This document shows, piece after piece, positions 138 through 19,816 of a stretch of 43,700 bases of DNA (within the stretch, counting starts at the first letter, position 1; every line of letters starts with the position of its first letter). A model generated the notes under the pieces. It was not told the DNA's origin, made no database searches, and saw only the letters and a program-made list of their open reading frames with translations. The stretch is from Thaumarchaeota archaeon casp-thauma3 (GTDB lineage Archaea; Thermoproteota; Nitrososphaeria; Nitrososphaerales; Nitrosopumilaceae): contig LFEY01000031.1 of assembly GCA_001510275.1 (NCBI GenBank), positions 1-43,700 of the forward strand, written 5' to 3'. The position numbers and the translations under genes were made by a program.

Positions 138-632
138 TCATAATTTTTTGGTCAAGTAATCAAACCCTTCCTCGATTGTAGGCAGTTCATATTTTTCGAT
201 TTGTTCCTCGACAAGCATTGCAGGAATTGATTTGCTTTCGATAACCTTTCTATGTTCCAATCTTTGCCAAATAACATTCTCCGGAGTAACAAAGTACACT
301 CCTTTGAAGATAATTGTTTTTCCATATTTTCTTGCCATTTCCCTGAGTTTCAAAATAAGACTACACCTCATTTCAGAGCCCAGGTTAGTTCTGTCAATCA
401 CAAAATCTTTGTCGTTTCTTATACAGTATTCAATGTCCTCGTAAAAGTACTTTGTAAATTTCTTGAATATTCCAGTTGACTGTGATATCTTAAATGCGTT
501 ATCATAACTTACTCCAAGTATACTTGCCTGTTCTTCGACATATTTGTCTGTGGAACAAATTACCTGATCTAAGGTCTTGGCATGAGTAGACTTGCCACTT
601 CCGCTTGTGCCAACTAAGATTGTTGTTAACAT
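138..632 (-). CDS. Small P-loop kinase (AAA_33 / polynucleotide-kinase-like)
   Basis: A 164-aa ATP-binding protein. The Walker A motif GTSGSGKST sits at residues 8-16. A STDKY segment (about 27-31) and the VIDRTNL strand (about 79-85) match the layout of AAA_33-type kinases related to the kinase domain of T4 polynucleotide kinase, where that Asp/Thr region contacts substrate. An arginine-rich lid, QRLEHRK, lies near residue 124-130. The family phosphorylates RNA/DNA 5' ends or small molecules, and the substrate here cannot be read from the sequence. The gene is monocistronic and leftward. The ATG start lies directly before the P-loop strand, as is usual for these short kinases. Confidence 0.7.
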   Translation of the reverse strand: MLTTILVGTSGSGKSTHAKTLDQVICSTDKYVEEQASILGVSYDNAFKISQSTGIFKKFTKYFYEDIEYCIRNDKDFVIDRTNLGSEMRCSLILKLREMARKYGKTIIFKGVYFVTPENVIWQRLEHRKVIESKSIPAMLVEEQIEKYELPTIEEGFDYLTKKL

Positions 633-1053: not shown

Positions 1054-1169
1054 TTATCATTGGCAGAAAATTGAAACGTCATACCTTAGAATGAAAATCA
1101 GATAGTAAAAACTTTCATTATTTTGATAATTATAGATCATTTTTTATCTTAGAAGTGTGTATTAGTATT

Positions 1170-1280
1170 AGGAAGCCAACACAATAACCTATTGTCATAA
1201 AGCTCCCATCGTGTTACTGGTGTCGCATACATACGGCATCACGTAAAGGGTGAGTATAGTTGGCTTCTTGGTATTTTTTT
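1170..1280 (+). ncRNA. Candidate free-standing structured RNA (about 105 nt)
   Basis: The outer stem 1172-1180/1259-1267 is 9 perfect pairs and extends outward by G-U and A-U. Inside are a hairpin 1181-1186/1190-1195 (6 perfect pairs, 3-base loop) and a long arm with CTC/GAG and CC/GG (1203-1207/1249-1254, one bulge), TTAC/GTAA (1214-1217/1243-1246) and GGUGUCG/CGGCAUC (1219-1225/1234-1240). A TATA-like ttttatctt at 1142-1150 would start transcription at about 1172. Seven T residues follow at 1274-1280. I do not recognise the family. A 5S rRNA was considered, but the first arm is far too short. Confidence 0.5.
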
Positions 1281-1461: not shown

Positions 1462-3345
1462 CTAGCTAAGTTTAGGAACAAAGATGTAGATAATTGCAAT
1501 TATCTCTAGTCTACCAAATATCATCAAAAATCCCAAAACCATCTTTGTAGCAGAATCTGTATCTGTGTCAATTACTCCTGCTGATAGTCCACTCGTAGTG
1601 ATAACTCCTACTGCCTCAAAGAATGCATCTTGGTATGGCACATCCTCAATTGCTGCAAGATGTAATCCTGTAATTGCAGCAATTGTAGGAAATAGTGCAA
1701 TAATGATTATCGTAGATATGAGTTCTTTTTTTGTTTGATTTGATAATTCGGCTCTTTTTACTTTATTAACAAAAGATCCGATATCCCTCAAGTGGAATAG
1801 TCTAAATATTTTCAAACCTCCTGCAGTTGAGAATCCACATCCCCCAATCAACATCAAAATTATCAAAATAGTGTGGGCTCCACCATTAAGTCCTACAAGA
1901 CTTTCTTGTTGAAGTCCTGCAGTGGTACTAGCTGATACAGAATAAAATGCACTTTGTAAAGGATCAAGTCCGCTAACTGCCACAAATAAGATCGTCGCAC
2001 TACCTAAAATTGCAAAGTATGTGAGAACCTCCTTTCCAAGTTTTGGTGAAAGAAATTTTTTCCTAACAAACGCATAGTGAAATGTAAATGGTAATGCCCC
2101 AAGTATCATTGCACCCATCAAGACTATGTATTCTTGCCAAAGTAAATCATCAAGAATTGTAGATGTGGGGAGGAATCCTCCTGTTGAAAGAGTACTCATA
2201 GCCAATGAGAAATTATCAAGTATGTCTCTTTCACCAAAGAAATACAATAGGGTTGCAACAATCACAATGTAAATTGAAAAAATGACTGTGATGGTCAAGA
2301 AAAGTTCTTTCATGTGAAGTGTTCTTCCTGATATGAAACCACGCATAGATTGTAGTTTTGATTCTGGATAAAATGCGGTAATTACCAAGTAAATAAAACT
2401 CATGCCACCTACAAGCTGTGTGTAGCTTCGAAAGAATGTAAAACTCTGAGAGAGATTTTCTGGCTCATCAAATAATGATATTCCACCAGTTGTAAATCCT
2501 GCAGCACTTGAAAAGAACGCATTTGCAAATACATCTACACTACTTTCATCACTTGGAAATACATACAGATACGGAACAGTTCCAACTAGTGATAGTAAAA
2601 ATAGACTAGAAAATACCAGGATAGATGCCTGCTGTAAGTTGAGACTTGATTTTTCACCATAAGAGTTTAGAAAGAATCCAGTAATTAGCAAAAGAACTGT
2701 AGTTAGGTAAATTCCAGTAGCAATTACTGTATCTTCTAAAACTGTTGCGACAAGAGCAGGTACAAGCAACAAAACTCCTGCAAATTGCAATACAAAACCT
2801 AAGTTACCCAGAACTGCTTTTACAGGTGGACTCAAAAGGCGAGGAGCAGTGGCAGTAGCGTTTCTGATTACATTTGCAATAGTTGTCTGAAGGATCATAC
2901 CGACAACTTGATTTTTCTTTGATAGTACGGGAAGTTTTCTAATGTCATTATTTCTCATTTTATGCAAAGCGTCTTGCAATGTCGCCTTTTCATTAATTGT
3001 AATAAGTGGGGTACTCATAATGTCCTTTAGTGTAGTAGCTTCGGCGTAAACTGTAATGTCGCCCACTTTACTTAGAATGTCTTCATCTGTGACAATTCCA
3101 ACTGGAAGATTTTTTTCATTAGTAACAATAATGTCATCTGTTTCATAGTTATGCAACATTCTAGCTGCATCTCTAGTTTGTGTATTCAGACTAAGGATCA
3201 ATACATCCTTGTCCATGTATTCTGTAACATACTTGCTTAGAACGTATGAAACTGCACGTTCTGGATTTGTTGACATTAAGCTACCCACAGTTGGGGATTT
3301 TAAATAATTTTGGGTTGCTCGATAATCTTGATTGTTAAAAAACAA
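1462..3345 (-). CDS. trkH: CBS-TrkH potassium transporter
   Basis: A 627-aa membrane protein. Residues about 40-160 form a pair of CBS domains (motifs VGIVTDEDIL and VVGMILQ), which in other proteins bind adenine nucleotides. From about residue 175 a TrkH/KtrB-type channel follows. The four pore loops are visible as SSAAGFTTGG, STLSTGGF, ASTTAGL and ITTSGLSAG, each with the filter glycine. Such proteins take up K+ together with a cytosolic TrkA/KtrA ring, and none is encoded nearby. The N-terminal CBS pair is unusual for TrkH and suggests direct nucleotide gating in place of, or besides, TrkA. The gene is divergent from the DUF151 gene across 63 bases. Confidence 0.88.
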   Translation of the reverse strand: MFFNNQDYRATQNYLKSPTVGSLMSTNPERAVSYVLSKYVTEYMDKDVLILSLNTQTRDAARMLHNYETDDIIVTNEKNLPVGIVTDEDILSKVGDITVYAEATTLKDIMSTPLITINEKATLQDALHKMRNNDIRKLPVLSKKNQVVGMILQTTIANVIRNATATAPRLLSPPVKAVLGNLGFVLQFAGVLLLVPALVATVLEDTVIATGIYLTTVLLLITGFFLNSYGEKSSLNLQQASILVFSSLFLLSLVGTVPYLYVFPSDESSVDVFANAFFSSAAGFTTGGISLFDEPENLSQSFTFFRSYTQLVGGMSFIYLVITAFYPESKLQSMRGFISGRTLHMKELFLTITVIFSIYIVIVATLLYFFGERDILDNFSLAMSTLSTGGFLPTSTILDDLLWQEYIVLMGAMILGALPFTFHYAFVRKKFLSPKLGKEVLTYFAILGSATILFVAVSGLDPLQSAFYSVSASTTAGLQQESLVGLNGGAHTILIILMLIGGCGFSTAGGLKIFRLFHLRDIGSFVNKVKRAELSNQTKKELISTIIIIALFPTIAAITGLHLAAIEDVPYQDAFFEAVGVITTSGLSAGVIDTDTDSATKMVLGFLMIFGRLEIIAIIYIFVPKLS

Positions 3346-19742: not shown

Positions 19743-19816
19743 CGCCGCCCGTCAGACTTGAACTGACGACCATCCGATTAACAGTCGGACGCTCTACCAC
19801 GCTGAGCTAGGGCGGC
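19743..19816 (-). tRNA. tRNA-Asn (GTT)
   Basis: A complete 74-nt cloverleaf on the minus strand. The acceptor GCCGCCC pairs with GGGCGGC, the D-arm is GCTC/GAGC, the anticodon stem TCCGA/TCGGA carries the loop CTGTTAA (anticodon GTT), and the T-arm GTCAG/CTGAC carries loop TTCAAGT. The discriminator base is G, and CCA is encoded next at 19740-19742. There is no intron. An AT-rich TATA-like box lies about 30 bases upstream. Confidence 0.97.

Follow-up and report, generated by a model that had tools for sequence, protein, structure and literature searches.

Methanosarcina mazei sRNA162 and sRNA154 are trans-encoded archaeal small RNAs, the latter acting via the loops of a stable structure (PMC3510493, PMC5867862). 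The RNA family described below is like them in consisting of intergenic archaeal RNAs for which repressive pairing at the translation start of a distant mRNA is proposed. The M. mazei RNAs mask ribosome binding sites, in the case of sRNA162 through an unstructured linker, whereas in our family a hairpin is complementary to its putative target over 17-20 nt that include the start codon. A further difference, drawn without comparing the sequences, is that several unlinked sibling genes would here be directed against one mRNA.

Complementary hairpins and loops, suggestive of loop-loop initiation, are also found in the kissing-hairpin antisense RNAs of plasmids, CopA/CopT and RNAI/RNAII. These are cis-encoded on the strand opposite their target, whereas the RNA genes of our family are dispersed and unlinked to it. 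The bacterial sibling sRNAs OmrA/B and Qrr1-4 are encoded by paralogous genes within each genome and have a conserved pairing region in common; our family likewise comprises several paralogous RNA genes with a conserved pairing region, but is archaeal and has only one strongly complementary target. Marine group II Euryarchaeota have an abundant structured ncRNA of unknown function, Tan1 (PMC5069720); it is alike in being a structured ncRNA of planktonic archaea and differs in its length of 229 nt and its occurrence in Thalassoarchaea (sequence not compared). A 2018 review of archaeal sRNAs mentions neither Thaumarchaeota nor Nitrosopumilus (PMC5867862). In the open-access literature, with most subscription journals outside the search, we found no regulatory small RNA of Nitrosopumilus or ammonia-oxidizing archaea and no paper on the protein family DUF5679. 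The nearest known kind is the trans-encoded archaeal sRNA, and the family works like a trans-encoded antisense sRNA whose transcript and regulation are unproven. It is distinguished by the long start-codon complementarity carried on a hairpin, by the several unlinked siblings and by an apparent freezing of synonymous sites in the target.

The window, i.e. the whole stretch of 43,700 nt that was analysed, contains one member of this family near its beginning, with the following features.

138 to 632, minus strand: neighbouring gene for an AAA_33-type P-loop kinase (Pfam), separate from the RNA
1135 to 1138, plus strand: GATC at -36 from the RNA start, first box of the promoter-like module, recurring in copies
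1142 to 1147, plus strand: TTTTAT, TATA-box-like, at -29 (29 bases before 1171), recurring in copies
1165 to 1274, plus strand: small structured RNA, type A member (z -5.45; 98.9 bits with model R1; homologues), ends approximate
1171 to 1180, plus strand: 5' arm of the outer helix (GGAAGCCAAC), covarying, double changes in 4 of 9 pairs
1179 to 1198, plus strand: putative antisense stretch ACACAATAACCTATTGTCAT; includes the 6-bp hairpin (ACAATA/TATTGT, loop ACC)
1202 to 1255, plus strand: long arm of stacked helices, double changes in 10 of the 18 pairs of its helix
1259 to 1268, plus strand: 3' arm of the outer helix (GTTGGCTTCT), from fold and covariation
1274 to 1280, plus strand: run of seven Ts, terminator-like; downstream T-runs recur among family copies
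1462 to 3345, minus strand: neighbouring gene for a TrkH-type K+ transporter with CBS domains (Pfam TrkH, CBS), convergent with the RNA and separate from it

The plus strand between 1165 and 1285 folds at -40.2 kcal/mol, compared to -23.9 kcal/mol (sd 3.0) for dinucleotide shuffles, none of which was as good (0/200). The fold consists of the outer helix GAAGCCAAC (1172-1180) and GTTGGCTTC (1259-1267), which has 9 bp and reaches up to 16 bp (1165 to 1274) in the minimum-energy structure, the small hairpin with its arms at 1181-1186 (ACAATA) and 1190-1195 (TATTGT), and a long arm made up of a GCUCCC/GGGUGAG region, an internal loop AUCGUG and an apical stem UUACUGGUGUCG/CGGCAUCA.CGUAA closed by the loop CAUACAUA. 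The first-pass annotation had read the same three elements (a 9-bp outer helix, a 6-bp hairpin and a long arm with stacked helices) from the letters alone, and all of them are present in the computed fold. No open reading frame of at least 30 amino acids crosses the element on the plus strand of the gap, which agrees with the earlier description of a gap without a convincing large ORF. An RNA on the reverse strand, or a 38-aa reverse-strand ORF (1195-1311), was rejected, as that strand folds with a z of only -1.4 and the ORF had no Pfam match.

In an alignment of 22 copies (A1), 14 of 32 pairs underwent double changes, and 44 double-change cells were counted against 12.3 in shuffled alignments (0/500 as many). 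Pairing was possible in 97.6% of the cells and in 31-51% when the partners were slid against each other. A chance fold was rejected on the basis of the shuffle energies and this covariation. Two of the tests the earlier annotation had named, energy against shuffled DNA and covariation across relatives, thus did not refute the structure. The core conserved among copies corresponds to about 1171-1268 of the window RNA. Its outer helix and long arm covary freely in A1; the small hairpin (1179-1198), whose sequence is the best conserved of all parts, showed no double compensatory changes, only G-U pairs and a few unpaired cells. A pseudoknot between the loop and GGAU (AUCC/GGAU, ACCC/GGGU) was considered as well; it is possible in some type A copies and fails in others.

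A module of GATC followed by TTT[AT]AT precedes 44 of 88 family copies and only 2 of 260 control stretches. Taken singly, GATC occurs within 65 nt upstream of 71 of the 88 copies, mostly at -34 to -43, and TTTTAT occurs in 56 of them, mostly at -28 to -30 (controls 20/260). The TATA-like element precedes the helix by 28-29 nt, the place expected for an archaeal TATA box, and hence the claim of an own promoter is supported, without a transcript having been seen. The seven Ts noted as a terminator are likewise in place, and Ts are usual just downstream in the family (at least four in 77 and at least five in 53 of 88 copies). From the covariation and these sequence patterns the family is taken to act as RNA; transcription itself is inferred.

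The window RNA matched no known RNA, as had been stated before. A search with Rfam 15 at the gathering threshold over the whole window returned only a tRNA at 19743-19816, no match to the guide families (H/ACA, C/D box) and nothing at the window RNA; near it, relaxing the threshold to E≤5 added only a 14.5-bit match to sbrA at 1275-1327. Rfam assigned no family to six loci with relatives, and ARAGORN identified the window RNA as neither tRNA nor tmRNA. The description as a small structured RNA gene outside Rfam is thus supported, and we regard this gene of marine ammonia-oxidizing archaea as real and previously uncatalogued.

The existence of an RNA family is close to certain. A DNA search found copies with 74-83% identity in further genomes of the genus. 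A genome often has several of them; they are bounded by the outer helix, and their flanks are unrelated. A covariance model (R1) built from 22 copies matched in 61 of 95 genus genomes, and the mixed model R3 detected the family in six genera (g1, g3, g4, g14, g17 and g18) of the window's archaeal family (Nitrosopumilaceae-type), the diverged copies numbering 1-8 per genome. Among 400 genomes of the class, R3 found no member outside this Nitrosopumilaceae-type family. Three types can be told apart. Type A is scattered, in up to several copies per genome, and lacks a common neighbour. Type B (GAAAGCTGACAC...) mostly has one copy to a genome; its neighbourhood is conserved and includes an adjacent gene that, recognized by eye only, we take to resemble the DUF72 family. 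Type C (TGAAGACAGAA...) also has a conserved neighbourhood, different from that of type B. The genome of the window carries the type A copy and one of type C (contig C20:12059-12160, 88 bits with model R2). A cis-regulatory leader or riboswitch was rejected, as the window RNA runs into a convergent gene, the neighbours of type A vary and the neighbourhoods of types B and C differ. An origin in viruses was rejected too: six viral contigs contained the 17-nt seed, their best E value with R3 was 0.07, and they were taken as chance matches in unrelated sequence. Phage DNA gave no match to the RNA. In two genomes (G197:C67 and G139:C2; loci L081 and L084) type B and type C genes were adjacent on opposite strands, about 370-390 bp apart, an arrangement that suggests local duplication as the origin of the types. 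G221 and G195 (e.g. L174, L175, L303-L305) had as many as 7-8 family members, many of them degenerate type C copies with diverged seeds.

In many family genomes the DNA search also returned a match of 20-23 nt that was not an RNA copy, being the antisense of the beginning of a small gene. This gene encodes a 47-residue zinc-ribbon protein (MTIGYCVKC...; Pfam DUF5679). Around its start codon, the DUF5679 gene (G000:C9:15360-15385) is complementary to positions 1179-1198 of the window RNA, a single A-A mismatch interrupting the 20 nt; in several type A copies one base is missing from the central part of the seed. The complementarity is nearly unique within the genome: with up to two mismatches, the seed consensus CACAATATCCTATTGTCAT occurs at three sites only in the 1.22-Mb own genome, namely antisense to the DUF5679 start (ATGACAATAGGATATTGTGT, no mismatch), in the window RNA (one mismatch) and in the type C RNA (two mismatches), and the reversed-pattern control gave no match there. 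With the target, the window RNA is predicted to form a duplex of -29.7 kcal/mol and the type C RNA one of -32.7 kcal/mol, energies reached by none of 4340 window tiles and none of 2000 shuffled seeds. The best random tiles of the window attained -28.5 and -29.0 kcal/mol, so that duplex energy alone discriminates weakly. Cofolding of the full-length RNA and mRNA gained only -8.8 kcal/mol net, because both hairpins must open, and kinetics or a protein helper may matter. Judged on sequence, the DUF5679 mRNA is likely the target, in the absence of expression or binding data.

A trans-encoded antisense RNA should be a transcription unit of its own, unlinked to its target, and have conserved complementarity near the target's translation start. 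Target and RNA lie on different contigs (C9 and C31, respectively), transcription is inferred from the conserved promoter-like module only, and the complementarity is conserved, weakly so in g18. Cis-encoded antisense action was rejected, given that the target gene is on another contig and that only one RNA copy, in G158, is within 1 kb of a gene copy.

Conservation of the target start matches the presence of the RNA. A gene-side search with a fully degenerate pattern for MxIGYCVKC showed that 60 of 72 genus genomes with the gene read exactly the 20-nt ATGACAATAGGATATTGTGT, third codon positions included; variation begins at codon 7, a valine whose third position shows all four bases. At other places in the gene (Gly16, Gly26, Cys9 and Ile30) these amino acids are encoded by several codons, a comparison made with codons 2-4 fixed in the pattern, and the invariance itself rests on the fully degenerate search. 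In a second DUF5679 paralogue, which does not have this start, the corresponding cysteine is encoded by TGC as well as TGT. Where gene and RNA occur together in the genus, the 20 nt are intact in 52 of 53 genomes. No RNA match (R1, R2 or R3, E≤0.01) was found in 11 of the 12 deviating genomes compared to 8 of the 60 intact ones (Fisher p 2.6e-7, uncorrected for phylogeny); the deviating genomes represent about 4-5 separate lineages in weakly resolved trees of neighbouring genes. The correspondence has gaps. Genome G059 keeps RNAs though its gene carries TGC, some genomes have the RNA and no gene was found, and in the eight with an intact start the RNA was not found; several genomes are incomplete. 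The RNA is also absent from six genomes of the genus (G193, G196, G199, G204, G209 and G210) that showed only the second paralogue. Three gene copies with diverged bodies and identical first 20 nt are present in G158. The extra diverged copies are on its contigs C8 and C13 (L007, L112), one about 1 kb from a type A RNA gene.

Changes on both sides were found in other genera. In g17, where the RNA reads GACGCAATAGCCAATTGACC, the DUF5679 gene of genome G034 was located by reading stretches of 1.2 Mb in all. Gene (ATGATAGGCTATTGCGTA) and RNA (GACGCAATAGCC) are exact complements over 11 contiguous nucleotides; the gene reads ATC ATG ATA GGC TAT TGC GTA, and the RNA matches it at GGC and TGC, the two synonymous sites that have changed. 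A prediction of this gene made beforehand was right for GGC, TAT and TGC and wrong for ATT and the preceding codon. In three g14 genomes with TGC (G014, G032 and G048) the RNA carries ACGCAG, which pairs with TGC, in an otherwise degraded seed. In g18 the hairpin has become CGATATTTTCACTATCG (CGATA...TATCG): its helix is kept by compensatory change, most of the complementarity is lost and the RNA persists. The g18 gene uses other codons, gene and RNA having drifted together. Taken together, these few informative changes favour pairing, as far as sequence comparison can tell. The g18 hairpin (TTTTCACTAT) also has a 10-nt match to ATAGTGAAAA, which precedes the gene in g18; this match was discounted because it probably falls within the promoter. 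The hairpin reads GATACGATATTTTCACTATCG in nearly all g18 species (L203, L205-L213) with the scaffold kept, and may have a different conserved target there.

The RNA might instead serve a role unrelated to the DUF5679 mRNA, such as binding a protein or metabolite, with the match at the gene start a product of chance or an ancestral relic. Such a role could account for g18 and part of g14, which keep the scaffold with a different hairpin sequence, and for the strong conservation of the long arm and of the GUUAC/CAUAC/GUAAAGG positions, unexplained by antisense pairing. It leaves aside the exact 19-nt antisense match at the start codon, found elsewhere in the genome only in family members, and the synonymous-site invariance of the gene, which follows the presence of the RNA, with the matching changes in G034; we therefore think it unlikely, though it deserves to be kept in mind. 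Pairing with the DUF5679 mRNA could also activate or stabilize it, or the 5' end of the mRNA could titrate the RNA. The mRNA start folds into a hairpin that pairing would open, and M. mazei sRNA154 stabilizes some of its targets (PMC5867862). Pairing that covers the AUG itself would, by inference, exclude an initiating ribosome, and we give these effects only a slim chance.

Two further explanations place the function in DNA. The palindrome ACAATAnnnTATTGT is near the 5' end in both kinds of locus and might be an operator that lies shortly after the starts of the gene and the RNA genes and binds a transcription factor, perhaps the DUF5679 protein; gene and RNA genes would then be co-regulated without pairing. 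Yet among 56 distinct ungapped seeds, pairing with the mRNA is possible at loop positions 10 (100%) and 11 (96%) and, beyond the palindrome, at flank positions 2 (96%) and 18 (98%). Transitions in the left arm keep pairing in 18 cases and break it in 3, whereas in the right arm all 12 break it; such asymmetry is unlike a palindromic DNA operator and points to an RNA hairpin, an RNA duplex or both. No other such palindrome with up to two mismatches exists in the genome, and an operator appears slightly less plausible still than activation. That the family is a non-autonomous mobile element (MITE), the outer helix being its terminal inverted repeats, can hardly be maintained. Dispersed type A copies, several per genome with unrelated flanks, would fit; the conserved promoter-like module lies outside the repeat, the internal arm shows compensatory changes, type B and C copies sit in conserved gene neighbourhoods and viral contigs hold no supported copies. 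Neither target-site duplications nor empty sites were seen by eye at the copies in an unsystematic look.

We consider it rather probable, without expression or binding data, that the family consists of trans-acting antisense RNAs repressing DUF5679 translation. Most members carry a hairpin that is near-exact antisense to the DUF5679 start codon, and hence they probably shut off translation of that gene. Each RNA of about 100 nt would be transcribed independently, with the outer helix and long arm as a stable scaffold and the small hairpin ACACAAUANCCUAUUGUCAU as the working part, antisense to the first 20 nt of the mRNA from the start codon onward. The mRNA start is predicted to fold a complementary hairpin (ACAAUA-GGA-UAUUGU). 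The two hairpins would most likely meet via their complementary loops (UCC or ACC against GGA), and the contact, inferred to take place in the cell, would extend into a duplex of 17-20 bp over the AUG. Covering of the start codon would then block translation initiation, the inferred effect, and mRNA stability may be altered too. The fuller picture, to which we lean only slightly, is a lineage-specific module in which several sibling RNAs target the start codon of one zinc-ribbon mRNA in trans by means of kissing hairpins, with synonymous sites frozen and the g18 hairpin retargeted on a kept scaffold.

Ammonia-oxidizing archaea rank among the commonest microbes of the sea. If the antisense reading is true, it provides a defined RNA family with a defined target and a pairing site that can be tested, and thereby offers a handle on the function of DUF5679. 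It would also be a natural case of synonymous sites seemingly fixed by a trans-acting RNA and released upon its loss.

Some minor observations concern the surroundings of these sequences. Within the long arm, CGUGUUAC, CAUAC (apical loop) and GUAAAGGAU (window positions 1207-1250) are almost invariant across all types; pairing with the DUF5679 start does not explain them, and they may be bound by a protein or form a further site of pairing. About 20-40 nt ahead of the DUF5679 start codon (L014-L030, L111-L130) there is a conserved stretch, either leader or promoter, that includes an inverted repeat (AAGTTCTCGCTAATAGAAC); the outline of this stretch is common to the second DUF5679 paralogue. 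Lastly, a 35-codon ORF without Pfam match at 699-806 on the minus strand of the window contains two CxxC motifs (MKYCHDCLTPINRNSSEEYCTICKRDRAQKARSIA) and may encode a very small zinc protein.
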